The position numbers and the translations under genes are program-made. A DNA stretch of 35,136 nucleotides from Opitutus sp. GAS368 (GTDB lineage Bacteria; Verrucomicrobiota; Verrucomicrobiia; Opitutales; Opitutaceae): contig CAMBVX010000025.1 of assembly GCA_945871085.1 (NCBI GenBank), positions 1 to 35,136 of the forward strand. Direction: 5' to 3'. Below, one piece after another: positions 2,544 to 27,237 of this stretch. Position 1 is the first letter of the stretch. Every line of letters begins with the position of its first letter. The notes under the pieces are model-generated. The model was given only the letters and a program-made list of their open reading frames with translations, searched no databases and was not told where the DNA came from.

Positions 2544-3983
2544 ATGAATCGTCTCCCTCGTATGCTCTCCGCGGCGGCGCTCGCCGCGCTCGTCTTCGTT
2601 TCGGCCCAAGCCCAACCCAACAATAATTCCCCCGGCGGCACCCCGGGCGCTCCCGCCGTCGGCGGCCGCGGCCGCGGACCCGGCGTCGAATCCGGCCCCG
2701 GCACGGCCTATAAGTCCCCCGAGGTCAACGCCAACAGCTCGCTCACCTTCCGTCTGCTGGCACCCAACGCCAAGTCCGTGCGCGTGCTCACCGATATGCC
2801 GAAGCTCGGCAAAGTCACTGTCCACGGCTCCGCCGGCTACGACATGGTTAAAGACGAAAAGGGCATCTGGTCCTACACCACGCCGCCGCTCACACCCAGC
2901 TACTATCAATACTGGTTCATCGTGGACGGGCTTACGACGCCTGACCCCATGAACACGTTCGTCCGCCCAGCGACTGGGACCCCTGGCGTCTACAAGAGCG
3001 TGGTCGGGGTCCCCGGCAAAGAGGCCGAGTTCATGATGTTTCGTGACGTGCCGCACGGCAACCTGACCGAGCATCACTACTTGAATAGGGAGAACAAGAC
3101 GTCGCGTCGCGTGGTCGTCTACACGCCGCCCGACTACCACACCAGTGGCAAGAGCTACCCGGTCATTTACCTCCTCCACGGCTTCAATGACTCCGAACGT
3201 GGTTGGACGCAGTCCGGCATGGCCCACCACATCATGGACAATCTGATCGCCGAGGGGAAAGCCGTCCCCGCGATCATCGTCATGCCGTTCGGCCACAATA
3301 TCACAACGTCGATGGGAAAAGTGGCGGAAATTGCCTACACGCAGAAATCGCTCGGCTTCACGCCGCCGCCAGCGGCGGCACGTGGTGCGGGCCGCGGCGC
3401 AGCCGGCGCGCCGGGCGCCGGTGCAGCCCCGGGAGGTGCCGCTGCTGCCGCTCCTGCAACTGCCGCTCCCGCAGCTGGCGCTCCCGCAGCTGCCGTCCCC
3501 ATAGCCGGGGCTCCCGCAGCCGGCGGACGCGGAGGCGGCATTGGTGGCCCGACCGCAGATGGATGGTCGATGGAAAAGGAAATCCTCAATTACGTCATCC
3601 CCTACGTCGAAAAAGATTTTCGCGTGATCAAGCACAAGGATAGTCGCGCCATCTTCGGCTACTCGATGGGCGGCGGTCACGCCACCTCGATCGGCTTTGG
3701 GCACCCTGAAGTATTCTCCCACGTCGGCGGCATGAGCGGCGGCGGTGCCAATTTTATCACCTCCAACCCGGCGCGGGCGGCGACGGCGAACAAGGATTAC
3801 AAGATGATCTTCGTCGGTTCGGGCACCGAGGACGGCGCCATCAACGGCGCCCGCACGTCGCACGCGGCAATGACCGCACAAAACATCAAGCACATCTTCA
3901 GCGAAGATGTCGGCTACGGTCACGACTACCAAGTTTGGCGGCTCTACCTCTACCGACTCGCGCAGCAGACCTTCCGGGATTGA
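2544..3983 (+). CDS. Secreted CE1-like esterase with N-terminal E-set domain and Pro/Ala/Gly insert
   Basis: A 479-residue exported protein (signal peptide about residues 1-23, ending AQAQ). A Gly-rich spacer (about 28-55) leads to an early-set/CBM48-like beta-sandwich (about 58-150; SLTFRLLAPNAKSVRV is typical). The esterase domain follows, with VYTPPDY and YLLHG strands, nucleophile Ser374 in GYSMGG, an acidic residue in GSGTEDG (about 426) and His460 in GYGHDY. Between the strand ending IIVMPFGHN and the nucleophile elbow the domain is interrupted by roughly 63 residues (274-336) made almost wholly of Ala, Pro, Gly and Arg. The paralogue at 28621-29922 has the same architecture and an insert at the same place. 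Likely a feruloyl or acetyl esterase on hemicellulose; substrate inferred from context only. Confidence 0.87.
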   Translation: MNRLPRMLSAAALAALVFVSAQAQPNNNSPGGTPGAPAVGGRGRGPGVESGPGTAYKSPEVNANSSLTFRLLAPNAKSVRVLTDMPKLGKVTVHGSAGYDMVKDEKGIWSYTTPPLTPSYYQYWFIVDGLTTPDPMNTFVRPATGTPGVYKSVVGVPGKEAEFMMFRDVPHGNLTEHHYLNRENKTSRRVVVYTPPDYHTSGKSYPVIYLLHGFNDSERGWTQSGMAHHIMDNLIAEGKAVPAIIVMPFGHNITTSMGKVAEIAYTQKSLGFTPPPAAARGAGRGAAGAPGAGAAPGGAAAAAPATAAPAAGAPAAAVPIAGAPAAGGRGGGIGGPTADGWSMEKEILNYVIPYVEKDFRVIKHKDSRAIFGYSMGGGHATSIGFGHPEVFSHVGGMSGGGANFITSNPARAATANKDYKMIFVGSGTEDGAINGARTSHAAMTAQNIKHIFSEDVGYGHDYQVWRLYLYRLAQQTFRD

Positions 3984-4047
3984 GGCGCCCGTCCGTGGCG
4001 AAGGCCACCGAACCGAAATCAGCTCCTTGACCGACACTCGCACCTTC

Positions 4048-7000
4048 ATGAATTTTGCCATCCACTCGTCACGTCGCATCGGCTTTTTCCGCTTCATCGC
4101 ACTGTCCGGCTTCGCTCTCGGCCTGGCGTTCTCCGCTGTCGCGGCGCCGCTCAATGTCCTCTTCCTCGGCGACAGCGGCATCCATTTGCCCGGCACCCGC
4201 CTGCGCGATCTCGCACCGGCGATGATCGGTCGCGGTATCCATCTGGTCTACACCGAGGACACGCCGGCCGCGCTCTCGCTCGAAAACCTGAAGCGCTACG
4301 ACGCGCTCTTGATCTACGCCAACACCACGCGCCTCGAGCCCGCGCAGGAGCAGGCCCTCGTCGATTACGTCACGCAGGGTGGCGGACTCATCGCCGTGCA
4401 TTGCGCCTCGGCGGCGTTCGGCAACTCCGACCGCTTCATCGCGCTCGTCGGCGGGCGGTTTCACAGCCATCAGACCGGCACTTTCCGCACCCGCATCGCG
4501 GAGCCGAGCAGTCCCGTGATGCAGGGCTTCTCCGGCTTCGAGAGCTGGGACGAAACTTACGTCCACGACCGGCACAACGAGACCAATCGCACCGTCCTCG
4601 AATACCGCGAAAACGAGCCGTGGACCTGGGTTCGCTCCGAGGGCAAGGGTCGCGTGTTCTACACCGCGTGGGGCCACGACGCGCGCACGTGGACCAATCC
4701 AGGTTTTCAGGATCTCATGGAGCGCGGCATCCGCTACGCCGCCGGCCAGAAATTGCCCGACGCTCTTCCGAAGACGAGTTCCGTGGCCGCGTTCGAATAC
4801 GAGGACGCTTCGGAGACCTTGAAGGTCCCCAATTACAGCGCCGATCCGAATGCCAAGCGCGAAGGTGCCAATCCGTGGCCGAAGATTCAGAAGCCGATGA
4901 CGCCGCAGCAGTCGATGGAGCACATCGTGGTCCCGGCCGGCTTCGAGCTGCAGCTCTTCGCTTCCGATCCCGAGATCAAGAAACCCATCGCCATGGCTTG
5001 GGATGAGCGCGGCCGGCTCTGGATCATCGAAACCACCGACTATCCCAACCGCTTGGTCGAGCCGGGTCAGAAGGGCAACGACCGCATCGTGATCTGCGAA
5101 GACACGAACAGCGATGGCAAGGCCGACAAATTCACAGTCTTCGCCGAAGGGCTCAACGTCCCGACTTCTCTCACCTTTGCCCGCGGCGGCGTGATTGTGC
5201 ATCAGGCACCGGTCACCCTTTTCCTGAAAGACACCAACGGTGACGACAAGGCTGACATCAACGAAGTGTTGCTCACTCCCTGGAGTCGGGACGACACCCA
5301 TGCCGGGCCGAGCAACCTGAACTACGGCCTCGATAATTGGATCTGGGGAGTCGTCGGTTACTCTTCGTTCCGGGGAGGCAGCGTGGGCGGCAAGCCCGTT
5401 CCCCAAATTCGCCAGGGCATCTACCGCTTCAAGTCGGACGGCTCCGCGCTGGAGCCGATCCGCAATACGAACAACAACACCTGGGGCTTGGGCATTGACG
5501 AGAACGGCACGATCTTCGCCTCGACGGCCAACAACGTCCCCAGCGTGTATATGCCCATCGCCTCGCGCTATTACGCGCCAGCAGGGCTGACGGCCGGCGT
5601 CCTTGGGTCCATCGCAGACACCTCGCGCTATCTGCCCATCACACCGAAATTTCGCGAAGTTGACGTTTTTGGCGGCTACACGGCCGCCGCGGGCCACGCG
5701 GTCTATACCGCGCGTTCGTATCCGAAGCGTTACTGGAATCGCGTGGCATTTGTCACCGAGCCCACGGGCCATCTGGTGGGCGAGTTCAACCTCGAACCCA
5801 ATGGCGCCGCTTTCCGCTCGCGCAATCCCACCAATCTACTTTCCAGCGACGACGAATGGGTCGCGCCCATCATGGCCGAAGTCGGCCCGGATGGCTCGAT
5901 CTGGGTGATCGATTGGTATAACTACATCATTCAGCACAACCCCAAGCCCGCCGGCTTCGAAAACGGAAAAGGCAACGCTTACGAAAACCCGCTGCGCGAC
6001 AAACGCCACGGCCGCATCTATCGAGTCGTCTGGAAGGACGGCAAGCCGTCCGCGCAACCCAACCTCCACAATGCGAGCCCTGCCCAGCTCGTGGCCGCGC
6101 TGAAGAACGACAACCTGCTCTGGCGTCGTCATGCCCAGCGTCTGCTCGTCGAACGGGGCTACAAGGATGTCGTCCCCGCGCTCGTCGAACTCGCGAAAGA
6201 GCAGAGTGTGGACGAAATTGGCCTCAACGTCGGGGCCACGCACGCGCTGTGGACGCTCCATGGCCTGAACGCCTACGACACCTATCCTGCGGCGCTCGGT
6301 GCCGCGACTGACGCATTGAAGCATCCATCCGCCGGCGTGCGCCGCAACGCGGTGCAGGTGCTACCTCGCACGGTGGCCACCGCCAATCTCATTGCCTCCG
6401 GGAGCGTGCTCACGGATAGCGACGCGCAAGTGCGCCTTGCTGCCCTGCTCGCGATTGCCGACTCGCCCAACGTCCCCGCGACCGGCCGGGCGATCCGCGG
6501 CCTGCTGATGGCGCAGACCTCCACGCTTGATCGCTGGTCGGGGGATGCCGCCAAAATTGCGGCCACGGCGCAGTCCGAGGGTTTCCTCGCTGCCGTCACC
6601 CCCGAAGAGATGGCGGCCGCCCGCAATTCGATCGATCAAGCGTCCCGTCACCTGCTGGGATCGGCCTTGCTCGCGACGAGCGGTGCCGGGCTCCCGGCAG
6701 GCTGGGAACTCGTGCAGACCGCCGGCGAAGTCCAGGCCAGCCGGGCGAATAACTCGCGGAACGGCCAGCACTCGCTCCAAGTCGCGCTCAACGGTGAAGG
6801 TGCTGCCGGCGGGGCCAGCACCAAGGTCAAAGTGAAGCGCAATTTCCGCTACGAACTCACGGCTTGGATCAAGACCGAAGGGCTGCCGATGGCACCGCCT
6901 CAGGCAGGCCGCGGCCCCTCCGGTGGCGGTGGCCCGGGTGGGCGGGGTGGCGGCCTCGGGGCCGCGGGCGGCGCGACCGTGGCCCTCCAAGGGGGACCTG

Positions 7001-7713
7001 GTGGTCGCGGTGGCTTTGGCGGTGGCCCTCCCGGCGGACGGGGCGGTGCCCAGGCCACCGTGGCACGGGGAACGGCGGACTGGGCCCAAATTCGAGTCCC
7101 GGTGACCACGACCACTCAGGAAGAAATCACTCTCGTGGCCAGCGTTTCGTTGGGTGCTGCTTCCTCCGGCGGCACCACCAAAGGAACGGCGTGGTTCGAT
7201 GAAATCGTGATTCGCGAGATCGGTCCCACGGACGAAACGATCAGCGATCCGCTTTCCAGCGTCATTAACCACGTCACGGCCCGCATGGTCACTACCCCCA
7301 AGATCGCGGAGACGACCAGCGTTACGGCCCCGGCCGCGTTGACCCTTAACCTCGGGGCGATCCCCAACGTGATGAAGTTCGACAAAGCCGAACTCACCGC
7401 CAAGGCCGGCACGCGGGTGCGTCTGGTTTTCACCAATAACGATCACATGCCGCACAACGTCCTGCTGCTTCGCGCCGGCACGCTTGAGGCAGTCGGCGCG
7501 ATGGCGGACCGCATGGTGACGGATCCCACCGCCATGGTCCGCAACTATATCCCCGACACGGCGGACGTGCTGGCCAGCACGCCACTCGTGAACCCGAACG
7601 AAACCGCCGAGTTCACGTTCACCGCGCCCGCGACGCCCGGTCGTTACCCTTACGTCTGCACCTTCCCCGGTCACTGGCGTCTCATGCAAGGCACGCTCGT
7701 CGTCACGCCTTAA
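4048..7713 (+). CDS. ThuA / PVC beta-propeller / HEAT / azurin-like cupredoxin fusion protein
   Basis: The ATG at 4048 is chosen because it begins a clear signal peptide (about residues 1-32); an upstream ATG at 3907 would overlap the previous gene and hide it. Domains of the 1221-residue product, in order: ThuA-like (about 33-235, trehalose-utilisation glutamine-amidotransferase-like fold); a PVC 'putative membrane-bound dehydrogenase' beta-propeller (about 290-665, with DTNSDGKAD and DTNGDDKAD Ca-type loops); HEAT-like repeats (about 675-805); a beta-sandwich carbohydrate-binding-like region (about 870-1065) interrupted by a Gly/Arg-rich stretch (about 950-1008); and a C-terminal cupredoxin (about 1095-1221). 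The copper ligands can be read directly: His in HMPHN (His1136), then CTFPGHWRLM giving Cys1204, His1209 and Met1213 with the exact azurin spacing. It is probably a large secreted redox protein; substrate unknown. It lies 20 bp before the cytochrome gene at 7734. Confidence 0.88.
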   Translation: MNFAIHSSRRIGFFRFIALSGFALGLAFSAVAAPLNVLFLGDSGIHLPGTRLRDLAPAMIGRGIHLVYTEDTPAALSLENLKRYDALLIYANTTRLEPAQEQALVDYVTQGGGLIAVHCASAAFGNSDRFIALVGGRFHSHQTGTFRTRIAEPSSPVMQGFSGFESWDETYVHDRHNETNRTVLEYRENEPWTWVRSEGKGRVFYTAWGHDARTWTNPGFQDLMERGIRYAAGQKLPDALPKTSSVAAFEYEDASETLKVPNYSADPNAKREGANPWPKIQKPMTPQQSMEHIVVPAGFELQLFASDPEIKKPIAMAWDERGRLWIIETTDYPNRLVEPGQKGNDRIVICEDTNSDGKADKFTVFAEGLNVPTSLTFARGGVIVHQAPVTLFLKDTNGDDKADINEVLLTPWSRDDTHAGPSNLNYGLDNWIWGVVGYSSFRGGSVGGKPVPQIRQGIYRFKSDGSALEPIRNTNNNTWGLGIDENGTIFASTANNVPSVYMPIASRYYAPAGLTAGVLGSIADTSRYLPITPKFREVDVFGGYTAAAGHAVYTARSYPKRYWNRVAFVTEPTGHLVGEFNLEPNGAAFRSRNPTNLLSSDDEWVAPIMAEVGPDGSIWVIDWYNYIIQHNPKPAGFENGKGNAYENPLRDKRHGRIYRVVWKDGKPSAQPNLHNASPAQLVAALKNDNLLWRRHAQRLLVERGYKDVVPALVELAKEQSVDEIGLNVGATHALWTLHGLNAYDTYPAALGAATDALKHPSAGVRRNAVQVLPRTVATANLIASGSVLTDSDAQVRLAALLAIADSPNVPATGRAIRGLLMAQTSTLDRWSGDAAKIAATAQSEGFLAAVTPEEMAAARNSIDQASRHLLGSALLATSGAGLPAGWELVQTAGEVQASRANNSRNGQHSLQVALNGEGAAGGASTKVKVKRNFRYELTAWIKTEGLPMAPPQAGRGPSGGGGPGGRGGGLGAAGGATVALQGGPGGRGGFGGGPPGGRGGAQATVARGTADWAQIRVPVTTTTQEEITLVASVSLGAASSGGTTKGTAWFDEIVIREIGPTDETISDPLSSVINHVTARMVTTPKIAETTSVTAPAALTLNLGAIPNVMKFDKAELTAKAGTRVRLVFTNNDHMPHNVLLLRAGTLEAVGAMADRMVTDPTAMVRNYIPDTADVLASTPLVNPNETAEFTFTAPATPGRYPYVCTFPGHWRLMQGTLVVTP

Positions 7714-7733: not shown

Positions 7734-10511
7734 ATGTCGCAGAAAAAAATCAATCTCGCCCTGCTATGGCTCGCCAGCAGCGGCACGATGACCGGCGGTG
7801 CTTCCTTGCGCGCCGCGGTGCCGCCGGCCGTCGCCTCCGCGTTCATCGAAAAGCACTGCGCCAGTTGCCACAACGACGTCGACAAGGAGAACGGACTCGA
7901 CCTCACGAGCCTCGCCTACGCGCCGGACGACGCGGCCAATTTCGCGATGTGGGTGAAGGTGCACGATCGCGTGCAGTCCGGCGAAATGCCGCCGGAGAAA
8001 AAGCCGCGGCCTGCGACGGCGGACCTCACCCAATTCGTGCAGACGATGGCGTCGACGCTGACCGCTTCCGAGCGGGCGATGACCGCGACCGAAGGCCGCG
8101 CCGTGCAGCGGCGGCTCAATCGCTACGAATACGAAAACGCGCTGCGCGATCTGTTGAACGTATCTTGGGCGCAGGTGAGAGACAAGCTGCCGCTAGAGGG
8201 TGAACGCTATGGCTTCAACAAGAGCGCCGAGGCTCTTGATGTGTCGTTCGTGCAGATGGAGCGCTACCTGTCTGCCTCGGACTACGCGATGCGGCAGGCG
8301 ATGGCGGCGGCGTTCGAACGACCGGCGAAAAGCGTGCGAAAGATATATGCGCGCGACGTAATCTCGGGCTATCAGCCGCGCGAAAACGGCACGCTGCCCG
8401 ACCGGCTGGCGTTCCCTGTGCTCGACTCGCGCGCGCAGACTGAGGTGCGTGCCGGCCGCGTCCCCAACTCCGACCCCGCGACCCGTGAACGCGAGGCCGT
8501 CGGCAAAGTTTCCAGTATCTTCAGCGACGCGGGTGGCTACAACTGGGGCTTCAGCGCGCCGACTTCCGGTCGTTATCGGATTCGCCTGAAAGGCTACAGC
8601 GTCTGGGTGAGCGGCGGCGGGATCGGCCGGTGGATGTTCGATGGGCAGGGGGCGGAAAAAGCTCCGACCTACTGGATGCCCGTCTGGCACCGGCCCAACG
8701 CCGACGAGATCTGGCCGGGTCGCAACGTCGAGCCCATCGGATTCTACGCGACCAGCTCCGGGCAGACCCGCCCGATCGGAGTGGGCGACTTTTCGCCCGA
8801 AGCGTCGGTCGTCGCAATCGAGGCCCAGCTCGCGGGCGGCGAGAGCGTTCGCACCGACGCCATGCGCTTCTTCCGCACGCGCGTGAACGGCACCGACGAA
8901 CAATACGTCAACCCGCTCGCGACGGCGGACGGCATGCCGGGCTACGCGGTCCAATGGCTGGAAGTCGAAGGCCCGCTGGAGGACCCGACCGCGATAACTG
9001 GATACAAGCTCCTTTTCGCCGACCTGCCCATGCGTCGCATGGAGGCCGGGCAAACGGGTGGAGTGCTGCTCGAAGGAATTTCGCTGGCTGGCGCCGGCGC
9101 CGGTCGCGGCGGAATTGGCCCCGGCGGGCCGGGCACCGCTCGCGGCGGCCCGGGCGGGCGCGCCGGTGGACGCGGCGGTCGCGGTGGCGGCGGAGGCGGG
9201 CTGATGGTCGATGTGTTTTCCGAAAATCCGGAACAAGACGCTGATCGACTCCTCCGCGGCTTCATGCAGACAGCCTACCGGCGGCCCGTGCGAGAGGTGG
9301 ATCAGCAGCGCTTCCTGGGGCTGTTCCAAAAGGAGTTCGCGCAAGGCTCGGGTTTTGCGCGCTCGATGCTCGCGGCTTACACGGGAGTGCTCGCTTCGCC
9401 GGGCTTTGTGTTTGTCGACGAGTCGCCGGGCCGGCTCAGCAACATGGCACTCGCCACGCGCCTCGCGCTTTTCCTCGGCAACTCCACTCCCGATGCTGCG
9501 CTCCGGGCGAAGGCCGAAAAGGGCGAACTGCACAACCCGGAGGTGTTGCGCGCTGAAACGGAGCGTCTCCTCAACGACCCGCGCTCCAGCCGCTTTGTCG
9601 AGGCCTTCACCGACTACTGGCTGGATCTGCGGAAAATCGACGACACGTCGCCGTCCTCGACTATCTACAACGACTACGAGATGGACGACCCTCTCAAGCT
9701 CGCCGCGCTCGACGAGACGCGTCTCTTCATCGCCGAGCTGCTGCGCTCCGATCTCCCCGCGCGCAACATCGTGGATTCCGATTTCACATTCCTCAACGGC
9801 CGCCTCGCCGCGCACTACGCGATTCCGGGCGTCGAAGGCGCGGCCATGCGTCGCGTGACGCTTCCCCCGGGCAGCGACCGCGGCGGCCTGATGACGATGG
9901 CCAGCGTGCTCAAGGTCACGGCCAACGGCACGACCACTTCGCCCGTGCTGCGCGGCCACTGGATCGCGGAGCGCATCCTCGGACTCGCGATCCTGCCGCC
10001 TCCGGCCGGCGTGAAGGCCGTCGAGCCCGACATCCGCGGCGCGGTGACCATTCGCCAACAGCTCGCCAAGCACCGCGAAGATGCTTCGTGCGCTTCGTGT
10101 CACATCAAGATGGACCCGCCCGGCTTCGCCTTGGAGAGCTTCGATGTGATGGGCGGGCGTCGCGACCGCTACCGCGCCGTGGCCGAGAATGTGCGTCCCG
10201 TGCGCGGCTTCGGCATGAGCGGACAAGCCTTCGCGTTTCACTATGGCCTCCCGGTGGACTCGGCTGGCGAACTGCCGGATGGCCGCGCCTTCAAAGACGT
10301 GCGCGAGTTCAAGGCTCTCGTGCTCAAAGACGAGCTGCCCGTCGCTCGCAATCTCGCGAAGCAGCTCGTGACCTTCGCCACCGGTTCTCCCGTGGGTTTC
10401 GCCGACCGCGCCGCGCTGGAGCAAATTCTGCAACGGGCCGCCACTCGCCATTACGGCGTCCGCACGCTCGTCCACGAGATCGTGCAGAGCGGGCTGTTCC
10501 AAAACAAATGA
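7734..10511 (+). CDS. DUF1587/1595/1592/1588/1585 planctomycete-cytochrome-type protein, two CxxCH motifs
   Basis: A 925-residue exported protein. After a weak signal peptide a PSCyt1-type haem site lies at residues 42-46 (CASCH). DUF1587 follows (about 115-185, [15 protein letters not shown]), then a beta-rich region (about 200-440), a Gly/Arg spacer (about 452-490), DUF1595 (about 500-575, [14 protein letters not shown]), DUF1592 (about 583-702), DUF1588 (about 704-815) containing a second CASCH at 786-790 followed by MDPPGFALE, and DUF1585 (about 850-923). This order is the standard architecture of the family, which is confined mainly to Planctomycetes, Verrucomicrobia and relatives and is usually paired with DUF1552, encoded here only 7 bp downstream. 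Both CxxCH sites suggest covalent haem and electron transfer in the periplasm; the substrate is unknown for the family. Domain calls are from recognised sequence signatures. Confidence 0.9.
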
Positions 10512-10518
10512 TCCCGTC

Positions 10519-11871
10519 ATGAAAGAATATTTCCCTGCCGCCCAAGCCCCGTTCATCGCCACCCGCCGCGCCCTCTCGCGCCGGCGCTTCCTCCAAGGCG
10601 CGGGCATCGCGCTGTCGCTGCCGCTGCTCGATGCCATGCTGCCACCGTTCGCCCGCGCGGCCAGTGGATCGTCGCCGCTCCTGCCGGGCGCGAAGCCGCG
10701 CCGGATGTTCGGTGTCTGCAACAACCTCGGCCTGCGGCCAGATCTCTTTTTCCCGACGGACAGCGGCGCGAACTACACGCCCTCGCCCTACCTGAAGCTG
10801 CTGCGGGAGCATCGTCAGGATTTCACCGTGTTCAGCGGCGTTTCGCACCCGAACGTGGATGGCGGCCACCCGTCCGACATCGCCTTCCTCACCGCCGCAC
10901 CGCACCCGGCGAGCAGTTCGTTCCGCAACACCATCTCGCTCGATCAGCACATCGCCGAGCGCATCGGCACGCTCACCCGCTTCCCCTCGCTCACGCTCGC
11001 AGTAAACGGCGGCGGGCGCGGCCTGTCGTGGACGGGAACGGGCGTCGCCATCCCGCCCGAGCAGAGCGCCGCCGAGGTGTTCAACCAGCTTTTTCTTCAA
11101 GGCACGCCCGAGCAGGTGCAGGCCCAAATCCGCAAGCTCGATTCCGGTCGCAGCATCCTCGACGCGGTCGGCGAGCAGGCCAAGGACTTCCAGCGCGATC
11201 TCGGCGCGCGCGACCGCAGCCGGCTTGAACAATATTTCACCAGCGTGCGCGACCTCGAGCACCGTCTCCAAGAGTCGAAGGGTTGGGAGAGCAGACCCAA
11301 GCCGATCGTCAGCGCCGCGCCGCCGGTCGACCCGACCAACCCCGCGCAATACATGGCCAAGGTTAAAGTCATGTATGATGTCGTTCGCCTGGCCTTCGAG
11401 ACCGACTCGACGCGCGCCGTCACGCTGATGCTCAACAGCGTCGGCACCCCGGTTATCTCTGACACCGGCGAAACCCTCACTGACAGTTACCACAACCTCT
11501 CGCACCACGGAAAAGCCGACGAGAAACTCTCGCAGCTCAAGATCATCGACGAGGGCCACATGAAGCTCCTCGCCGACCTGTTCCGCGATCTCAAGGCCGT
11601 GCGCGAGGGCGAGGAGACGCTCCTCGATCGCACGATGATCCTTTACGGATCCAACCTCGGCGACGCCAACGCGCACTCGACGATCAACATGCCGACGCTC
11701 TTTGCCGGCGGCGGCTTCCGCCACGGCCAGCACCTCTCGCTCGACCCGGCGGGCGGCATTTATCCGTTGCCGAATCTCTTCGTCTCGATGCTCCAGCGCA
11801 TGGGCTTCGAGGACGGGAAGTTCGCCTCCTCCACCGGCACAATGAAGGGCGTCGAGCTCAAGGGCGCCTGA
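10519..11871 (+). CDS. DUF1552 family Tat-exported protein
   Basis: A 450-residue protein with a textbook twin-arginine signal: SRRRFLQG at residues 20-27, a hydrophobic core and an ARAASG cleavage region near residue 50. The body aligns by eye with the DUF1552 protein at the start of the window: [22 protein letters not shown], an [21 protein letters not shown] helix segment, and the histidine motif SYHNLSHHG. It begins 7 bp after the DUF1592-type cytochrome gene, the classic PVC pairing, so the two are presumably co-translated and work together outside the cytoplasm. The biochemical role of the pair is not established. The copy at window position 1 is clearly diverged, so the two are not a recent duplication. 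Confidence 0.9.
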
Positions 11872-13741: not shown

Positions 13742-16700
13742 ATGATCACCCCACACCCATCCCCGGCGGCCTTTGGCCGCTGCCTTGCCCTCGCACTGAG
13801 CATCCTCGGTGCCGCCCAACTCAACGCGCAGTCGACCGCCGCAGTCGACGCCGCCGCGCTCGCCAAATACGACAAGAACAAAAACGGCAAACTCGACCCC
13901 GACGAACTCGAACTCATGAACGCGGAGTCGGTCCTGCGCCTGTCCGCTTTCGAGGTTCGCACCGATCAGGACCGCGGCTATCAGGCGGCCAACGCCGGCT
14001 CCGGCGGTCGCATCGACATGCCGCTGAAGGACACGGCCTCGGCCATGTCCGCCTTTACCAAGGAATTCTTGGAAGACTGGAACGTCACCGACATGCGCGA
14101 TTCGTTTCGCTATGCGATGAATGTGGATGCCGGCAACCTCGCCCAGATGGGCACGCCCTACGGCGAATTTGAGTTCAACTTCCGCGGGGTCGGTTCCTCG
14201 GGCAACTATCCGACCAGAAACTATTTTCTCTTCTACGGAGTCAGCGACTCCTACAACACCGAGCGCTTCGAAATGTCTCGCGGACCGAACTCGATTCTGT
14301 TCGGCGACGGCCAGATCGGCGGAGTCGCCACCACCGCGACCAAGGTTCCACGCCTTGATCGGAACGCCTACTCTGCCTCCACGCGGTTCGACAACTGGGG
14401 CGGCATCCGCGGGACGCTGGATGTGAACCAGAAACTCGGGTCGATGACCGCCGTCCGCGTCAACGCCAAGGCCCAGAAAAATACGGTCTTTAGTGCCTGG
14501 CGCGACAACGCGACCAACGAGGACAAAGCGATCACGCTCGCCGCCGCCCACGCCTTTTCCAGACGCACCAAACTGCGCACCGAAATCGAATTCGGCCGGG
14601 AGCTGCGGATGACTTGGGCCAACACCTACGGCGATCAGACCGCCTACTACACTCCCGGCTACCTCTACGATCGCACCAACCCGAATCTACCCGTCAGCCA
14701 GGGCCTCGCCGGCATCACCGCGGTGAGCACCAATGCCTTCAACTGGACTTACATTCCTGGTCTGCCGCAGTTGGGCCTCATCAACACCGGTGGCGCGGCG
14801 GTGAATGATCGGTCCTACCGCTCCACGGGCCATGGTTTTCCCATCCAACCGGAAGGCCGCACCGATCTGCCCGGCATCCGCAACGCCGCGAAACTCCCCA
14901 ACCGCGAATTCAACCTCGGTGCCAACGACACGTTGGCCCGCTTCAAGAACCAAGTTTACAGCTTCTATCTGGACCATCAGATCGCGGACAACCTCTACGG
15001 CCAGATTTCGTATTACAACTACAGCAACGACCGCAACGAACGCTCCAACGCCCGGGTCGGCTCGCTCCAAATCGACATCAATCGCTTTCTCCCTAACGGA
15101 CAGCCCAACCCGAAGGTGGGCGTCGCGTATGGTGAGGCCACCCCTGGCAAGGGCCATCAGGACAACTGGGTCCGCGAGTGGCGCGGTCTGCTGAAGTGGA
15201 ACACCAAGCTGCCGTTCCGGGGCAAGGGGCAGTTCGCCGCGATTTTGGGTGAACGCAAGGAACGCTTCGAGGCCCGGGGCTTCACCCCGGTGCGGATCGA
15301 TGGCACGCTCAACCTGCTCGCGTCGGAAAACAGCATCCGGTATCGTTACTATGCCGATGAGCCGAACAAGTATGGCAGCCAGTTCCTGCCGCCTTCCACG
15401 CCCGGCTTCACCTACGGATTTGTGCAGACCGGATTCGCCTCCACCGAATTCAAGAACATCAAATACGCCCAGCTTGTGGCCGCCACGTCGTTTCTCGACG
15501 AGCGCGTTTCCCTCGTGCTCGGGACGCGCTATGACGACCAGCTCAACCGGCAGCAGGGTAACATCGCCGGATTCCCCGATGCCCGCGGCCTGCAGAGCTA
15601 CGGCGGCTTCGTGCCCGGAGTGGGCAATCGTCCGGGGGCTTGGAATATCGGCAAAGCCGAGCCCATCACCAGCAACGTCGGAGCGGTCGTCTGGCTCGAC
15701 CAGAAACAGCGCGTCGGAGCTTTCTACAACTTCTCGCAGAATTTCGCCCCTCCTACCTCGGGTTCGGCGAAGATCATCGGCTGGAACGCCGACGGCACCA
15801 TCGTCAGCGAAGGCTTCGGTGCCACCACCGGCAGCGGCCGCGAGTATGGCTTCCGCTTCAATCTCCTCGACGGCGCGCTCTACGCCGAGGCCCGCCGCTA
15901 CGACAACAAACAGGTCGATCGCATCGACGGTCCGCCTGTCGGCAACTTCAACGGCCTTTGGACGAACGCGGGCAACTTCTACAACTCTAACCCGGACTAC
16001 ACCAGTGTGGCCTGGCGCGACGTGGCGGCGCTCAACACCAACGGCTATGAGTTCCAAGTCACCGGAAACTTCAAGGGCTGGCGGCTCACGACCAACTACG
16101 CGTTGCCGAAGACCGAGAACATCTCGATCCGCCCCGTGACGCAGGCCTACTTCGCGGCGTTTCTCCCAAAGTGGACCGACTGGGCCAACACCCTCCGCAA
16201 CGACAAGGGCGATACCCTCACGACCGACAACCAGACCCAAATCCGCAACCAGATCATCAATCTTCAAAACAACTTTGCGGGCGTCGCTCCCGGGACGGTT
16301 AACAACGGCACGAACAAGTGGACCGGCTCGTTCAACGCCAATTATTCCTTCTCGCGTGAGAGCAAACTGCGCGGGTTCTCGGGCGGTTGGGCCATCAGCG
16401 GACGCGGGCCGCGCAAAGTCGGTTCGGTCAACCCCAACATCCTCTTCAACCTCCCAATCGGAGCCACGGCCACTCCGGCTCAAAACAAGCAGGCCTCTTT
16501 CGCCTACGTTTACGCCACGTCCTACTGGGTGCAGGACCTGAACGCCTCCTACTCGCGCCGCATCGGGAAGTATAATTGGAGGTTCCAGGTCAACGTGAAC
16601 AACGTCTTCGACAAGGATGACCTGCAATACCAGAGCTACACGACCTACCGTGAGCTTGGTCAGGGCTCCAATCCCTTCGTCGGCGGCATGGTCAACAACG

Positions 16701-16756
16701 GCTTCAACTACCTCGACCCGCGCAAGATCAGCTTCACCACCACGGTCAGCTTCTGA
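13742..16756 (+). CDS. TonB-dependent outer-membrane receptor with N-terminal EF-hand
   Basis: The ATG at 13742 starts a signal peptide ending near LNAQ (residue 30). Residues 44-55 then form a complete EF-hand loop ([12 protein letters not shown]: acidic or amide ligands at 1, 3, 5 and 9, Gly at 6, Leu at 8, Glu at 12). Next come a TonB-box-like VLRLSAFEV (64-72) and the plug domain ([51 protein letters not shown]). The rest of the 1004 residues is a beta-barrel rich in Tyr/Asn strands that ends [10 protein letters not shown] with the expected terminal Phe. Opitutaceae carry many receptors of this plug type. The likely cargo is oligosaccharide released by the neighbouring esterases, inferred from location. 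The usual carboxypeptidase-regulatory-like N-terminal domain is absent. Confidence 0.92.
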
Positions 16757-16844
16757 TCGCGCGGTTCGCTCCGTCCAAGACCCTCGGGCCGGCGCCGTTC
16801 TCACGCGCTGGCCCTTTCACTTTCACCCACCCGTCCGCCTAAAC

Positions 16845-17672
16845 ATGTCCCGCCTCTTCGCCACCACCGCCGGAATTGTCGCTGAAATTGACGGTGCGCT
16901 CCGCGCGCCGTCCCACCCGCTGACGTTCGACGAGATCTTCGGCTCCGACGATCCCGCCGCCCTCGTAAACTCCGCTTTCGCGTCCGGCCCCGTCGTCGCC
17001 GCACCGACCCGCCTGCGCGCTCCGCTCCAGTCGCAGGAAGTTTGGGCCGCCGGTGTCACTTACCTGCGCAGCAAAACTGCGCGCATGGCCGAAGCGAAGG
17101 ATGCCGGCGGCGGAACCTTCTACGACAAAGTTTACGCCGCCGATCGGCCCGAACTGTTCTTCAAGGCGACGCCCCACCGCGTCGTCGCACCCGGCGACGC
17201 CGTCCGCATCCGCGCCGACTCAAGCTGGAATGTCCCCGAGCCCGAGCTCACGCTCGCGATCAACTCCACGGGAAAGATCTTCGGCTTCACGATCGGAAAC
17301 GACATGAGCTCGCGCGACATTGAGGGCGAGAATCCGCTCTATCTTCCGCAAGCCAAGTCCTACCACCGCGCCGCTGCCATCGGCCCGTGCCTCGTCATCA
17401 CCGACACACTGCCCGCCCCCGAAACAGTCATCGCCATCGAAATCCGGCGCGCAGGCGTCGCCGTGTTTTCCGGCGAGACAACCGTCGGCCAAATCAAACG
17501 CCCGCTCCCCTCGCTCGCTGACTGGCTGTTTCGCGAAAACAGTTTCCCCCACGGCTGCTACCTCATGACCGGCGTCGGCGTGGTGCCCCCCGACAGCTTC
17601 ACGCTCCGGCACGGGGATGAAATCCGCATCACGATCGAGCCGGTCGGCACGCTCGTAAACACCGTCGATTGA
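16845..17672 (+). CDS. Fumarylacetoacetate-hydrolase-fold enzyme, possibly 2-keto-3-deoxy-sugar-acid dehydratase
   Basis: The ATG at 16845 gives a 275-residue cytoplasmic protein without a signal peptide, the only such product in the first thirteen genes. The FAH fold is shown by [10 protein letters not shown] (about 68-78), PELFFKA, the metal ligands Glu132 and Glu134 in PEPEL, and [25 protein letters not shown] (about 147-171) with Asp153. This last block is what I associate with the branch that includes 2-dehydro-3-deoxy-D-arabinonate dehydratase and related sugar-acid enzymes, rather than true fumarylacetoacetase. In a xylan/uronic-acid locus, a step in oxidative pentose or uronate degradation (Weimberg-like) fits. 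Substrate is inferred; the fold is secure. Confidence 0.88.
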
Positions 17673-17723: not shown

Positions 17724-18677
17724 ATGCGCCTCCTCCCTCTCGCCTTCGCGGCGTTGTTGTCCGTCTCACTCGTTGTCGCTGCGGAGCCGGCCAAGCCCGC
17801 CACTGATCAATACTTCCTCGGTCCCGACTCCAAGCCGCAGGAAGGCGTGGCGAAGGGCACCGTCACCAAGGCCACGATCATCAGCAAAGTCTATGATGGC
17901 CGCACGTTCAACTATCAGGTCTACGTGCCCGCGAAATATGATGGCTCGAAACCGGCCGCCGTCTTTGTCGGCCAGGATGGCAACAACTTCGTGCGCGCGA
18001 TTAACGAGCAGACTAAGCAGCCGGGCGCGTGGCACGTGCCCGTGGTGTTCGACAACCTGATCCACAAAAAAGAAATGCCGATCACGATCGGCATCTTCAT
18101 CGATCCGAGTTCGCAGCAGCAGCGCGCCAACGAATACGACACCCTCTCCGACCGCTACGCGCGCTTCGTGATCGACGAGGTGCTTCCCGAGGTCGGCAAG
18201 ACCTACCGGCTCACGAAAGATCCCGACGGGCGCGCGATCGCCGGCTTTTCATCGGGCGCGATCTGCGCGTTCACGGTCGCGTGGGAGCGGCCGGACGCGT
18301 TTCGCAAAGTCGTGAGCTTCTTCGGCAGCTTCACCTCGATCGGCTACCGCCCCGCACAAGGCGACCGCCCGATGCAGCCCGGTGGCGACCTCTATCCAAC
18401 GCTCATCCGCCGAAACCCGATCAAGCCGCTCACCGTTTTCCTCCAGGACGGCTCCAACGATCTCAACAACCAGTTCGGCAGTTGGTGGCTGGCCAACCAG
18501 CAGATGCTCGCCGCGCTCGTATGGGCCAACGCCAACGCCGATCAGCGCAAATCTCCCGGCCCGCGCTATCGCGTGAACCACGCGTGGGGCGACGGCGGCC
18601 ACACCGCCAACCACGGCGCCGCCATTTTTCCGGACGTGATGCGCTGGCTCTGGCAGGGCTACGAACCCAAGGACTGA
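17724..18677 (+). CDS. Secreted CE1-like/enterochelin-esterase-type hydrolase
   Basis: A 317-residue protein with a signal peptide (about residues 1-20). The esterase domain has YVPAKYDG, VFVGQDG, a PVVFDNLIHKKEMP block, nucleophile Ser176 in GFSSGA, and His293 in GDGGHTANHG; the acidic member is probably in the LQDGSNDLNN region. It belongs to the same family as the protein at 1400 (shared NEYDT.S..YA.F...EVLP and a WLWQ.Y C-terminus) but lacks that protein's Gly-Arg spacer. It is encoded 51 bp after the FAH-fold enzyme and 35 bp before the large cytochrome protein, all in one direction. Probable periplasmic or extracellular ester hydrolase; the ester is not known. Confidence 0.85.
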   Translation: MRLLPLAFAALLSVSLVVAAEPAKPATDQYFLGPDSKPQEGVAKGTVTKATIISKVYDGRTFNYQVYVPAKYDGSKPAAVFVGQDGNNFVRAINEQTKQPGAWHVPVVFDNLIHKKEMPITIGIFIDPSSQQQRANEYDTLSDRYARFVIDEVLPEVGKTYRLTKDPDGRAIAGFSSGAICAFTVAWERPDAFRKVVSFFGSFTSIGYRPAQGDRPMQPGGDLYPTLIRRNPIKPLTVFLQDGSNDLNNQFGSWWLANQQMLAALVWANANADQRKSPGPRYRVNHAWGDGGHTANHGAAIFPDVMRWLWQGYEPKD

Positions 18678-18712
18678 GTTCCCGCCAAGCGCGGCTTCAC
18701 CGGAGATTCCCC

Positions 18713-21541
18713 ATGAGAAAGGCACCCCAAACGCTCCGGTCCGCGCTGGCTCTCGCCAGCGGACTGATTTGGGCCGACCCCACCCGCGCGGCCGAACGTC
18801 AGGCGACGCCCACCCCCGCCACCGCAAGCGTCACGACGATCACCGCCGCCGCCGAGGGGCCGCCGAACCCGCCGCCACCCGTTTACCTGTCGCCCGCGGA
18901 AAGTGTGAAACTCGTGCAGCTCCCGCCCGGCTACCGCCTCGAACTCGTGTTGAGCGAGCCCGATATCCGCGAGCCGGTCGTGAGCGTCTTCGACGGCAAC
19001 GGCCGCCTCTACGTCGCCGAGATGCGCACCTACATGCAGGACGCCGACGCCACCAACGAGAAGGCGCGCACCAGCCGAGTCTCCCTCCATTGGTCGTCGA
19101 AGGGCGACGGCCATTTCGACCGGCATTCCGTCTTCGTCGACGACCTGCTGCTTCCCCGGATGATTCTTCCGCTGAAGGACAGCGTGCTCATCCAGGAAAC
19201 CGATACCGGCGACGTTTACGAATACCGCGACACCGATGGCGACGGCGTGTCCGACGAGAAAAAACTATTTTTCAGTTTCGAGCCCCGCCGCGGTCAGAAC
19301 CTCGAACACCAGCCCAGCGGACTAATTTGGGCGGCGGACAACTGGATCTACACGACCTACAACGCCACCCGCATTCGCTGGACCCCACACGGCCCGATGA
19401 AGGAGCCGACCGCTCCCAACGGCGGCCAGTGGGGCCTCGCGCAGGACAACTACGGCAAGACCTTTGTCGTCAATGCCGGCAACGAGAATGGCCCGAGCAA
19501 CTTTCAACAGCCCATCGTTTACGGCGCGTTCAAGATGCGTGAAGAAATGTCGGCCGGCTTCAAAGAAGTATTCCCGCTCGTCGGCCTCGCCGATGTGCAG
19601 GGCGGCACGCTGCGTTTTCGCCCGGTCGATAAAACCCTCAACCACACGACCTCCGCCGCGGGCGTGGAAATTTATCGTGGCGACCGCCTGCCCTCCGACC
19701 TCGTCGGCGACATGTTGTTCGGTGAGCCGGTCGGTCGTTTGATCCGCCGTGCAAAGATCGAGGTGAAGGACGGTGTCACGAAGCTCCGCAACGCCCACGA
19801 AAAATCCGAGTTCCTCCGCTCCTCCGATCCCTTTTTCCGTCCCGTCAATCTCGTCAACGCGCCCGACGGCACGATCTACATCACCGACATGTATCGCGGC
19901 ATCATCCAGGAGGGCAACTGGACGCGCAAAGGCTCCTACCTCCGCGGGGTGATCGACCGCCATGGCCTGGCCGACAAGATCAACGGCGGCCGCATCTGGC
20001 GCCTGGTCCACGACAGCCTGAAGCCCGGCCCGCAGCCGCGCATGCTCGACGAGCAACCCGCGCAACTCGTCGCCCACCTCAGCCACCCGAACGGCTGGTG
20101 GCGCGACACCGCCCAGAAGCTCATCATTCTCAGCCAGGACCAGTCCGTCGTCCCCGCGCTCCGGAATCTTGCGCGCACTTCCGCCAAGCCGCTCGCCCGC
20201 ATCCATGCGCTCTGGACGCTCGAAGGCCTCGGGGGCCTCGACGCCGGCCTTGTCCGGGAAAAATTCAAGGACTCCGATCCCCACGTGCGCGTCGCCGCGA
20301 TCCGCGCGAGCGAAACCCTGCTAAAGGCCGGTGACGCCACGCTCCGCGCCGACGTCATCGCGCAGTGCAGAGATACCAACCCTGACATCGCGATCCAGGG
20401 GATGCTCACCGCGAATCTCCTGAAGCTCCCTGACGCAACGGCCATCATCACGAAAACCGCGCAGTCGAATCCGGTCGCAGGCGTGAAGGAAATCGCGGTG
20501 CAGCTTCTCAATCCGCTCGGCGGCTCCATCGGCACCCAGTTCACCGGCCCGCAACGCGCCCTGCTCGAGCGCGGCCAGGGAACCTACCTCGAGCTTTGTT
20601 TCGCCTGCCACGGCATCGACGGCAAGGGCACCCCGATCGATGGCAAGACCGCCACGCTCGCCCCGCCTCTCGCGGGCTCCGCCACCGCCACCGGCCACCG
20701 TGACGCGATCATCCTATCGCTCCTCCACGGAATCGGCGGACCGATCAAAGGAAAAACCTACGAAGCCCCCATGGCCCCGATGGGTGGCAACGACAACAAT
20801 TGGCTCGCCGCCGTCGCTTCCTACGTGCGCACCAGCTTCGGCAACCAATCGCCCCTTGTCACCGCGGAGGATGTGGCCCGTGTCCGCGCCGCCTTCCCCG
20901 ACCGTAAGGAAGCGTGGACGATCGAGACCCTCAACGCCCGCCTGCCGCAGCCGGTCGGCAATCGCAGCGCGTGGAAATTCACCACGAACCGCCCGGCCAA
21001 GTTCGGCGCCAGCGACACTCCCGCCACCGGTCCGACTGGGATGAGCTTCACTGCCACCGCGCCGGTGACGGGCGCGTGGCTGCAAATCGAACTTCCCGAA
21101 GCCGTCACAATTTCCGAGATGCGCCTCAGCAGCGCCAAATCGCCGCGCAACTTCACCCGCGCTTACAAAATCGAGCTATCCACCGACGGTGAGAATTGGG
21201 GCGAGCCCGTGGCCACCGGCCGTGGCCTCGGTCCGATCATCGACGTGGCGTTTAGCGCGACGAAAGCCCGGTGGATTCGCATCACTCACACGCAGTCGCA
21301 ATTCGGCCGAGGCGGGTTTGGCGGCCCTGGCCGCGCGGGCGGCAATTCTGCCAGCGCGAACGCCGCGCCCGTGGATGCCGCCGCGGCCAGCGCACCCGGC
21401 GCCAACGTTCCCACCGGTGCGAATCCGCCTCCCGCTCCGGCCGGTCGCGGCTTCGGCGGCGGTCCGCCGCCCACCGATTGGACGCTCGACGATGTCCAGC
21501 TCTATCAACCCGTGCCCACCGTCGCCGCCTCGTCGCCATGA
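18713..21541 (+). CDS. PVC beta-propeller / HEAT / cytochrome c / discoidin-like redox protein
   Basis: The ATG at 18713 begins a signal peptide (about residues 1-27). The 942 residues contain the PVC 'putative membrane-bound dehydrogenase' beta-propeller (about 67-435; PPGYRLELVLSEPDI, FDGNGRLYVAEMRTY, DTDGDGVSDE), HEAT-like repeats (about 448-540), and a cytochrome c domain with CFACH at 629-633 and a candidate axial Met in APMAPMGG (about 684-690). A discoidin/F5-8C-like beta-sandwich follows (about 750-862; LQIELPEAVTISEMRLSS, ENWGEPV, ARWIRITH), split near its end by a Gly/Ala/Pro stretch before DWTLDDVQLYQP. It is related to the fusion protein at 4048 but carries haem instead of copper. 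Probable secreted dehydrogenase or electron carrier with carbohydrate-surface binding; substrate unknown. The stop codon overlaps a stray ATG at 21538. Confidence 0.88.
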   Translation: MRKAPQTLRSALALASGLIWADPTRAAERQATPTPATASVTTITAAAEGPPNPPPPVYLSPAESVKLVQLPPGYRLELVLSEPDIREPVVSVFDGNGRLYVAEMRTYMQDADATNEKARTSRVSLHWSSKGDGHFDRHSVFVDDLLLPRMILPLKDSVLIQETDTGDVYEYRDTDGDGVSDEKKLFFSFEPRRGQNLEHQPSGLIWAADNWIYTTYNATRIRWTPHGPMKEPTAPNGGQWGLAQDNYGKTFVVNAGNENGPSNFQQPIVYGAFKMREEMSAGFKEVFPLVGLADVQGGTLRFRPVDKTLNHTTSAAGVEIYRGDRLPSDLVGDMLFGEPVGRLIRRAKIEVKDGVTKLRNAHEKSEFLRSSDPFFRPVNLVNAPDGTIYITDMYRGIIQEGNWTRKGSYLRGVIDRHGLADKINGGRIWRLVHDSLKPGPQPRMLDEQPAQLVAHLSHPNGWWRDTAQKLIILSQDQSVVPALRNLARTSAKPLARIHALWTLEGLGGLDAGLVREKFKDSDPHVRVAAIRASETLLKAGDATLRADVIAQCRDTNPDIAIQGMLTANLLKLPDATAIITKTAQSNPVAGVKEIAVQLLNPLGGSIGTQFTGPQRALLERGQGTYLELCFACHGIDGKGTPIDGKTATLAPPLAGSATATGHRDAIILSLLHGIGGPIKGKTYEAPMAPMGGNDNNWLAAVASYVRTSFGNQSPLVTAEDVARVRAAFPDRKEAWTIETLNARLPQPVGNRSAWKFTTNRPAKFGASDTPATGPTGMSFTATAPVTGAWLQIELPEAVTISEMRLSSAKSPRNFTRAYKIELSTDGENWGEPVATGRGLGPIIDVAFSATKARWIRITHTQSQFGRGGFGGPGRAGGNSASANAAPVDAAAASAPGANVPTGANPPPAPAGRGFGGGPPPTDWTLDDVQLYQPVPTVAASSP

Positions 21542-26316: not shown

Positions 26317-27237
26317 TCAGCGCGGGGCGAGCGAGCGTTCGAGGGAAAGTTGGGCGCGATACGCTCGCTCGGCGGCGGTGATGAGCCGTCTCCACCCGTC
26401 GGGATCGATAAAGGGGTTTTCTTTTTCGCCGCGGTCGAGCCGGGCAAATTTTCTGGTCATGCCGAACTGATCGCCATGCGGCGCGAAGAAAATGTCGCAG
26501 GGGAGTGCCTTCAGTTTTGCGAACGTCCCCTCGAATTGCTCCGCAAAATCAGGGAAAAGTGGGTTGTTCACCAGGAGGGTGCCGGCGTTGATCGTCGCGC
26601 TGCTGAAGAATACTACGCGCCGCACGTGCTCGCCTTCGGTCACGTCCATCGTCCAGGAGGTCGCGCCGCGCGTGTGGCCCGGAGTGAGGTGCGCGGTGAG
26701 CGTGGTGCCGCCGAGCGCGATGCGCTCGCCGTCGGCGACGATCCGATCCACTTTCACGGGCGCGTAGAGGACCGTGTCCTTTGGCCACTGGATGTAGTCG
26801 TCGTCGCCGCCGGACTCGAGGGCGCGGGCATCGCCGGCGCTCGCGACGACCCGCGCGCCGGTGCATTTTTTCATGAGCGCGTGACCCGCGACGTGATCGA
26901 TGTGGGCGTGGCTGCTGAGGATGAATTTGATATCGGTGAGATTGAAGCCGAGTTGCTCCACGCCGCGCTGGATGATGGGCACGGTGTCCTCGAAGCCGGT
27001 GTCGAGCAGGAAGTGCCCCTCGGGTGTGGTGATGAGAAACGAACTCACGCCGACGGCGCCGACGTAGTAGATGTTGGCGATTAGGTGACGCGGCGGAGTG
27101 GCCGGGCGCCACGGATCAAACATGCGCTTGACCGCGGCGCGGTCGGGTGGCGCTGGCAGCGGGGATGGAGTTTGGGCGACGGCGATAGCGCCGATGGCGG
27201 AGAAGGCGGCGAGGCAGAGGAAGTGTGAGGCGTTCAT
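26317..27237 (-). CDS. Subclass B3-like metallo-beta-lactamase-fold hydrolase
   Basis: A 306-residue exported protein (signal peptide about residues 1-21). All six zinc ligands of the B3 pattern can be read: His110, His112, Asp114 and His115 in HAHIDH, His188 in TPGHTRG and His254 in APHGDQFG. The N-terminal IANIYYVGAVGVSSFLITTPEGHFLLDTGF is also B3-like. Family members are class B3 beta-lactamases, but many environmental B3-like proteins have no known resistance role. Here it lies in the middle of a hemicellulose operon (12 bp before the symporter gene), so hydrolysis of a sugar lactone or another cyclic or ester bond is a reasonable alternative. Its ATG overlaps in ATGA form with the frame that continues past the stop of the upstream esterase. 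Confidence 0.88.
   Translation of the reverse strand: MNASHFLCLAAFSAIGAIAVAQTPSPLPAPPDRAAVKRMFDPWRPATPPRHLIANIYYVGAVGVSSFLITTPEGHFLLDTGFEDTVPIIQRGVEQLGFNLTDIKFILSSHAHIDHVAGHALMKKCTGARVVASAGDARALESGGDDDYIQWPKDTVLYAPVKVDRIVADGERIALGGTTLTAHLTPGHTRGATSWTMDVTEGEHVRRVVFFSSATINAGTLLVNNPLFPDFAEQFEGTFAKLKALPCDIFFAPHGDQFGMTRKFARLDRGEKENPFIDPDGWRRLITAAERAYRAQLSLERSLAPR

Follow-up and report, generated by a model that had tools for sequence, protein, structure and literature searches.

What does a protein do that joins a ThuA domain, a beta-propeller, HEAT-like helices and a type-1 copper domain in a single chain, and why does it end in copper where its sister proteins end in haem? The question is raised by a gene in a 35,136-nucleotide stretch of Opitutus sp. 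GAS368 (Verrucomicrobiota; assembly GCA_945871085.1, contig CAMBVX010000025.1, positions 1 to 35,136 of the forward strand), here called the window. The open frame extends over 3907..7713 (+), and its ATG at 3907 overlaps the upstream esterase open reading frame (ORF; 2544-3983). Because that ATG falls within the esterase ORF and the ATG at 4048 opens a signal-peptide-like sequence, we place the start at the latter; the gene likely spans 4048-7713 (+) and encodes 1221 residues. Taking all the evidence together, we lean towards the explanation that its product is a secreted multidomain sugar-processing redox protein. The features along the chain are as follows; rows are those of an alignment (41 rows) of the window protein with 40 of the 55 relatives retained by a filter for length and order of domains.

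4048..4146 (+): signal-peptide-like N-terminus of 33 residues, basic and hydrophobic, ending in AVAA, recognised by eye.
4147..4776 (+): ThuA domain (Pfam ThuA, E 7.6e-35; VIA structure match 4e5v).
4903..6036 (+): DUF7133 / TIGR02604 beta-propeller (PF23500, E 1.2e-116; TIGR02604; fold match to 3a9g).
5299..5301 (+): His residue 418, aligned by profile with His144, the catalytic base of soluble glucose dehydrogenase (sGDH); His in 41 of 41 rows.
5476..5478 (+): Asn residue 477, aligned by profile with the Asn of RNPQG (Asn229 of sGDH); Asn in 41 of 41 rows.
6079..6675 (+): HEAT-like helical domain (HEAT_2, E 4.3e-6; helices in the model).
6703..7227 (+): beta-sandwich (strands in the fold model), CBM_4_9-like in relatives, with a Gly-rich low-confidence insert.
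7339..7710 (+): C-terminal auracyanin-like cupredoxin (PF00127, E 4.2e-11), filling the position that a monohaem cytochrome c has in sister proteins.
7453..7455 (+): predicted type-1 copper ligand His, in 41 of 41 rows.
7657..7686 (+): CTFPGHWRLM, with the predicted type-1 copper ligands Cys (7657), His (7672) and Met (7684), each in 41 of 41 rows.

The ThuA-propeller-HEAT-cupredoxin fusion is real and far beyond chance. ThuA domains have a class I glutamine-amidotransferase-like fold, and the one found here scores 121.5 bits against PF06283 (gathering score 33.4), its VIA structure match to 4e5v (Z 22.8, root-mean-square deviation (rmsd) 2.4, 203 aligned) covering model residues 1-210. The window protein reaches 231.8 bits with TIGR02604 (the Piru_Ver_Nterm domain; cut-off 122.2) and 27.3 bits with HEAT_2, slightly below the cut-off of 27.7, and at the position of the beta-sandwich the haem relative L230 matches CBM_4_9 (E 2.4e-7). 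Numbered from 3907, the Pfam ranges are 114-278 for ThuA and 333-710 for DUF7133. Structure prediction of the whole mature chain, a check proposed in a preliminary description of this DNA, gave a mean predicted local distance difference test score (pLDDT) of 84.4 and a predicted template modelling score (pTM) of 0.82, with pLDDT below 50 in two Gly-rich stretches of the beta-sandwich (916-940 and 950-969) and in the stretch directly before the cupredoxin. Together, Pfam, NCBIfam and the fold model bear out that description in placing an N-terminal ThuA part, a propeller, a HEAT part and a C-terminal copper domain in one chain; the additional beta-sandwich between the HEAT part and the cupredoxin had escaped it. 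Gly-rich GGRGG runs were seen in the translations of both 4048-7713 and 7734-10511, in the former within the low-confidence beta-sandwich insert.

Verrucomicrobiota, Bacteroidota and a small number of other phyla contain the fusion repeatedly. A three-row cupredoxin alignment was used to seek relatives in a single genome from each species, and the best 80 of the 559 found come mainly from Verrucomicrobiota and Bacteroidota, with few records from other phyla; the fusion is also present in isolates (Parapedobacter, Dyadobacter and Runella). Among the ORFs of these best 80 loci and of 20 further genome stretches, 92 have the propeller, 96 the cupredoxin and 83 both, a figure that is no count of independent cases because the loci were mostly selected by their cupredoxin and L069 and L158 share a layout (the region apparently being present twice). 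In the window's family, 164 of 200 genomes have a cupredoxin match at E 1e-8, stand-alone cupredoxins being counted too. Neither the fusion nor a haem/copper swap was found described in the open-licence literature searched (titles and abstracts of the matches listed; subscription journals mostly absent), and the names DUF7133 and PF23500 did not occur there, whereas TIGR02604 with its long name appears in a single paper; absence from this literature does not prove novelty. According to a survey of azurin genes, 7.59% of Verrucomicrobia genomes have matches, the words 'fusion' and 'ThuA' being absent from its main text (PMC8779525).

Variants of the architecture were also encountered. In L141 the domains are reordered, ThuA standing after the cupredoxin, and the 2731-residue protein of L113 has one ThuA ahead of the propeller and a second after the cupredoxin. 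In the genome of the window, the propeller-cupredoxin fusions of L036 and L037 (C151 and C163) carry a GDSL/SGNH-type esterase domain before the propeller, L037 with a weak ThuA match in addition. A fourth fusion of this genome, L149:5075-7420 (C45), is a 782-residue propeller-cupredoxin protein with a weak DUF7133 match; cupredoxin matches in open frames of similar length recur across the family.

The C-terminal domain scores 43.6 bits with PF00127 Copper-bind (gathering score 21.2). Its predicted type-1 copper ligands, numbered from 4048, are His1136, Cys1204, His1209 and Met1213; all four are invariant across the alignment, which agrees with the full type-1 site proposed in the preliminary description. 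Under a looser pattern test both ligand motifs occur in 82 of the 83 propeller-cupredoxin ORFs, L092 failing the His-Asn pattern. The closest solved relative of the C-terminus is auracyanin A (2aan, E 1.7e-23; 4.8e-25 when the C-terminal stretch is searched alone), the best azurin standing at 5.1e-7. In azurin, a Gly precedes the first His ligand. The window protein has Pro at this position, and the 41 rows together have Gln 37 times, Pro 3 times and Glu once. With the azurin equivalog TIGR02695 at 35.2 bits, far under its cut-off of 105.1, azurin proper was rejected, and the azurin label given earlier named the wrong family. A search for viral relatives of the cupredoxin found none.

What fills this position in other propeller proteins can be read from the window's own genome, which was searched by propeller and not by cupredoxin (47 DUF7133 matches, some of them two per ORF). 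The 38 propeller ORFs taken from it comprise 28 with CxxCH after the propeller, 3 with a cupredoxin, none with both, 1 that is complete and has neither carrier, and 6 cut at a contig or stretch end. Among the five weakest further places, L149 has the propeller-cupredoxin protein, L152 and L153 have CxxCH, and L150 and L151 have neither. Proteins were labelled as haem forms by the CxxCH motif, and Pfam confirmed cytochrome c in all 6 haem forms scanned. The window ORF has no CxxCH, its cupredoxin occupying the place of the TIGR02604-type C-terminal haem site, and CxxCH occurs in 0 of the 83 propeller-cupredoxin ORFs, which come from loci mostly selected by their cupredoxin. Copper and haem modules are mutually exclusive in one slot.

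The nearest haem paralogue of the window protein seen in the genome is L048, the two propellers being 52% identical. A search of 223 genomes of the order with the L048 propeller found relatives at E 1e-60 in 28, among them haem ThuA-propeller proteins and two copper proteins outside the window's copper group, L213 and L215 (the latter cut within the cupredoxin, past the first His ligand). From ThuA through the beta-sandwich, over 951-956 positions, copper-bearing L213 is 71-73% identical to haem-bearing L211, L212, L214, L216 and L217, and beyond one junction the same pairs share only 21-25%; after the junction L216 retains 72-74% identity to its four haem sisters. Measured against the more distant haem forms L219 and L221-L224, L213 falls from 53-55% before the junction to 18-20% after it, and L213 and L215 share 83% in the first part and 63% in the second. 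In an LG+G4 tree built from 908 columns of the ThuA, propeller and HEAT regions in 35 chosen rows, L213 and L215 were grouped with five haem rows at 100/100, within a wider haem group, and the copper rows formed a single clade in 0 of 200 bootstrap trees. A rougher FastTree of 141 propellers (86 copper, 46 haem and 9 unlabelled, with long-branch warnings) required 5 changes of the copper/haem label, at least 4 by starred branches, versus 38 in shuffles. From these comparisons, the carrier seems to have been swapped between haem and copper with the rest of the protein left alone.

Two genes follow directly downstream.

7734..10511 (+): next gene after a gap of 20 bp, for a PSCyt1 c-type cytochrome with PSD2-PSD5 and PSCyt3 domains.
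10519..11871 (+): DUF1552 (HXXSHH) protein, 7 bp beyond the PSCyt1 gene (PF07586, E 3.4e-78).

Because a monohaem cytochrome c fills the same slot in close relatives and the next gene encodes a PSCyt1/PSD c-type cytochrome protein, a possible electron partner, the built-in electron acceptor of the preliminary description is well supported, and the C-terminal module is very probably a one-electron carrier. The natural swaps make a strong case for the carrier role. The window holds a second DUF7133 protein (18017-21541, +), which has a cytochrome c (CFACH) with an F5/8 type C domain behind it, so that a copper and a haem version lie within 11 kb. It also holds a second DUF1552 (HXXSHH) protein (69-1382, +), and in L069 the close relative has a DUF1552 gene on its upstream side. 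Such PSCyt genes are known from metagenome-assembled genomes of Verrucomicrobia, where they were described as being of unknown function and, in some cases, as carrying carbohydrate-binding domains (PMC5615132).

The surrounding genes encode PF00756 esterases (one of them weakly like a xylanase/feruloyl esterase, far under cut-off), a SASA protein, a TonB plug protein, an FAA hydrolase, a glucuronoyl esterase, a GH43 protein and a GPH-type transporter; to judge by these predicted products, the surroundings are a xylan-type cluster. They alone suggest a xylo-oligosaccharide as the substrate. The FAA-hydrolase family protein (16617-17672, +) has a weak similarity to GguC/AraD1, far below cut-off, and possibly belongs to an oxidised-pentose pathway. 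Inside the cluster lies a metallo-beta-lactamase (26320-27237, -; NCBIfam subclass B3, 297 bits, cut-off 240). The window also encodes an AbiEi_4 antitoxin-type regulator (30993-31592, +).

For the propeller, the full model matched 3a9g (Z 27.6, rmsd 3.1, 289 aligned), 2ism (26.4) and the AA12 structure 6i1q (25.8), followed by sGDH (1qbi, 24.1, with an aligned range that starts in ThuA) and, at Z about 23, by lactonases and the non-enzymatic HHIP; on this predicted structure, the best matches are aldose dehydrogenases dependent on pyrroloquinoline quinone (PQQ). A mixed DUF7133 profile aligned with a PF07995-type profile at a probability of 98.5 and E 2.5e-15, using the 8 of 26 PF07995 loci that show the RN-motif pattern, and a haem-subset profile aligned with 15 profile-found PF07995-type sequences at 98.5 and 1.5e-15. 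PF07995 was absent among the families matching the window protein up to E 0.1, phmmer with the window propeller against solved structures gave nothing useful (best E 0.27), designed and other repeat propellers ranked above sGDH (1.2e-6) when the family profile was run against solved structures, and folding the propeller alone with the mixed alignment gave a pLDDT of 78.9, poorer than in the full chain.

In sGDH, the catalytic base is His144, Arg228 and Asn229 lie at the PQQ quinone (PMC6881810), and Lys377 with further arginines holds the PQQ carboxylates, the Lys being absent from AA12 (PMC6881789). The corresponding sites in solved Asd-type proteins are the His that precedes (F/S/N)GG, the RN within RNPQG and the C-terminal RxR, the last present in 7cdy, 2g8s, 2ism and 3a9g, the four solved Asd-type chains whose alignment reaches it. 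This RxR we take to be Arg406/Arg408 of sGDH. No position could be assigned to Lys377, a residue conserved neither across the PF07995-type set nor in 7cdy. Of 31 mixed propellers from the window's genome, 16 keep the His, 23 the Asn, 7 the Arg of RN, 22 the first C-terminal Arg and none the second.

Neighbouring genes bear on the product. Among 123 proteins encoded on the same strand next to ThuA fusions (150-999 residues; 8 more left out), 42 match GFO_IDH_MocA, 11 AP_endonuc_2 and 10 ThuA, and 32 are one protein type with the motif GLGFG(A/S)EF, which starts at most 13 residues from the protein start in 30 of the 32. A gene of this Gfo/Idh/MocA type lies in the fetched stretch of 35 of 52 ThuA-propeller-copper ORFs versus 0 of 15 without ThuA directly before the propeller, a contrast (Fisher p 1.6e-6) that is indicative only, because the loci are related and some are short. 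It also adjoins the haem forms L230-L233 and L235 and the copper form L229. At E 1e-70, the type occurs in 28 of the 223 genomes of the order, 22 of which are also among the 28 with an L048-like propeller (hypergeometric 8e-20, not corrected for kinship). Among solved proteins DgpA is nearest to it (E 2.7e-19, over the N-terminal part only), and its NCBIfam matches to glycoside and disaccharide 3-dehydrogenase families stay far under cut-off. In Caulobacter, lactose is used via 3'-ketolactose by a periplasmic dehydrogenase and a putative hydrolase, with epimerases and a reductase nearby (PMC9007349). The Gfo/Idh/MocA neighbour, its likeness to DgpA and the 3-dehydrogenases, and this Caulobacter route are the grounds on which we propose a keto-sugar as the product.

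These data can be assembled into the following mechanism. Outside the cytoplasm, the propeller would oxidise a hydroxyl of a sugar or glycoside, probably to a keto-sugar, by means of a cofactor presumably not bound in the usual PQQ manner; for the window gene the substrate would probably be a xylan-derived sugar or side chain. Electrons would pass one by one to the fused Cu(II) centre and on to c-type cytochromes, the PSCyt1 protein encoded directly downstream being an example. The keto-sugar would be acted on by the ThuA domain, joined in many relatives by a Gfo/Idh/MocA oxidoreductase that is encoded next to the fusion and has no signal-like start. To sugar oxidation by the propeller we give an even chance, and to a keto-sugar product somewhat less than that.

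Several observations weigh against this mechanism. The Arg of RNPQG, in the place of Arg228 of sGDH, is Asn in 41 of 41 rows, and the two positions of the C-terminal RxR are Ala/Gly/Ser and Ile/Val in 41 of 41, so that 3 of the 5 alignable positions of the PQQ pocket are not kept; a narrow profile of ThuA-copper propellers alone gave no alignment with the PF07995 profile (probability 8.6), and no other cofactor site was identified in the propeller. The Gfo/Idh/MocA partner is not in the window gene's own locus, the single match in the genome directly following the haem paralogue L048 on another contig, and 17 of the 52 ThuA-propeller-copper loci have no such gene in the fetched stretch. The purified haem-type relative Lac161_ORF7 was reported to hydrolyse lactose (glucose release, Km 1.8 mM, kcat 13.2 per s; PMC5342196). 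Because the pocket arginines are absent, we do not file the propeller as a PQQ enzyme, a plain reading that was tried and rejected, though it may act in the same way. None of 29 genomes, the window's own among them, yielded a PqqE above cut-off, which is weak evidence because none of 14 control genomes exceeded the cut-off either, and the window's genome has 15 PF07995 matches (best 4.7e-117), so that PQQ may well be used or taken up. The possible sugar-oxidising propeller of the preliminary description therefore stands in part: the PQQ aldose dehydrogenase fold and the catalytic His speak for it, and against it are the three missing arginines and the fact that the only assay found for a haem-type relative reports hydrolysis of lactose, not its oxidation (PMC5342196).

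Among the alternatives, the one that survives best, though we consider it unlikely, is that the fused carrier works for a dehydrogenase in another protein: polysaccharide would be bound by the propeller and beta-sandwich, and the copper or haem would take electrons from that other secreted enzyme. The lack of an identified cofactor site in the propeller, the presence of HHIP among its fold matches and the other haem proteins close by in the window would all fit, but a pure scaffold would have no need of the putative catalytic His and Asn, which all 41 rows share. Moreover, the Gfo/Idh/MocA neighbour is probably no extracellular donor, because its nucleotide-binding motif lies so near the protein start in 30 of 32 cases that there is no room for a signal.

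Somewhat less probable again is that the propeller is a glycoside hydrolase or lyase, possibly acting via transient oxidation, with a carrier that only resets or tunes it. This draws on the glucose freed from lactose by Lac161_ORF7, which was produced in E. coli BL21(DE3)pLysS and whose Km, as the paper remarks, resembles that of LacZ (PMC5342196); because this host has its own LacZ, the preparation could contain it, and oxidation followed by cleavage would likewise release glucose from lactose. A plain hydrolase, in addition, needs no conserved haem or copper module. We regard it as very improbable that the cupredoxin serves to store copper or survives as a structural leftover with no part in electron transfer: the ligands are invariant in all 41 rows and the domain is exchanged, position for position, with a cytochrome c, a module with which it shares little beyond electron-carrier function. 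An assembly or annotation artefact, a chance fusion of unrelated genes such as a fragmented source assembly (630 contigs) might produce, is refuted, because the fusion is found again in many genomes from several phyla, those of isolates among them.

The preferred explanation, a secreted sugar-processing redox protein, matters because DUF7133 proteins are numerous: this genome by itself has 47 matches. Sisters of about 72% identity that differ in haem versus copper are a natural experiment and provide ready test pairs, which would show how a lineage trades iron for copper within one protein. By pointing to an electron carrier at the C-terminus, these sisters also imply redox activity in the propeller or in a close partner. 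It is a tentative and rather doubtful generalisation that DUF7133 proteins are sugar oxidoreductases which kept the fold and base of PQQ aldose dehydrogenases, took an electron route other than PQQ, and exchanged their carrier between haem c and type-1 copper several times.

Among known systems, the window protein can be compared with the PVC-type heme-binding CxxCH proteins (TIGR02604 / PF23500), with which it shares a propeller over cut-off, HEAT-like helices and the C-terminal carrier slot; it differs in having a cupredoxin in place of the name-giving CxxCH domain, and an N-terminal ThuA, which some haem forms share. Lac161_ORF7 likewise combines a TIGR02604 propeller, HEAT and a C-terminal carrier, but that carrier is a cytochrome c, ThuA is not among its three reported domains, and it was reported as a beta-galactosidase (PMC5342196). 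With auracyanin A/B and azurin the protein has in common the type-1 copper domain, auracyanin A being nearest by sequence, whereas here the cupredoxin is a fused module and lies under the azurin equivalog cut-off. The propeller fold, the catalytic His and the Asn of RNPQG link it to PF07995 sGDH/Asd proteins and fungal AA12, from which it is set apart by its missing PQQ-pocket arginines. In the Coprinopsis AA12-AA8 protein, a propeller is also joined to a cytochrome, with a haem b carrier in contrast to type-1 copper here (PMC6881789). Copper nitrite reductases with a tethered cupredoxin or cytochrome offer a further parallel, an enzyme with a covalently attached redox domain (PMC7201279). Their catalytic domain, however, is unrelated to that of the window protein. 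Electrons in those enzymes flow in the direction opposite to that proposed here.

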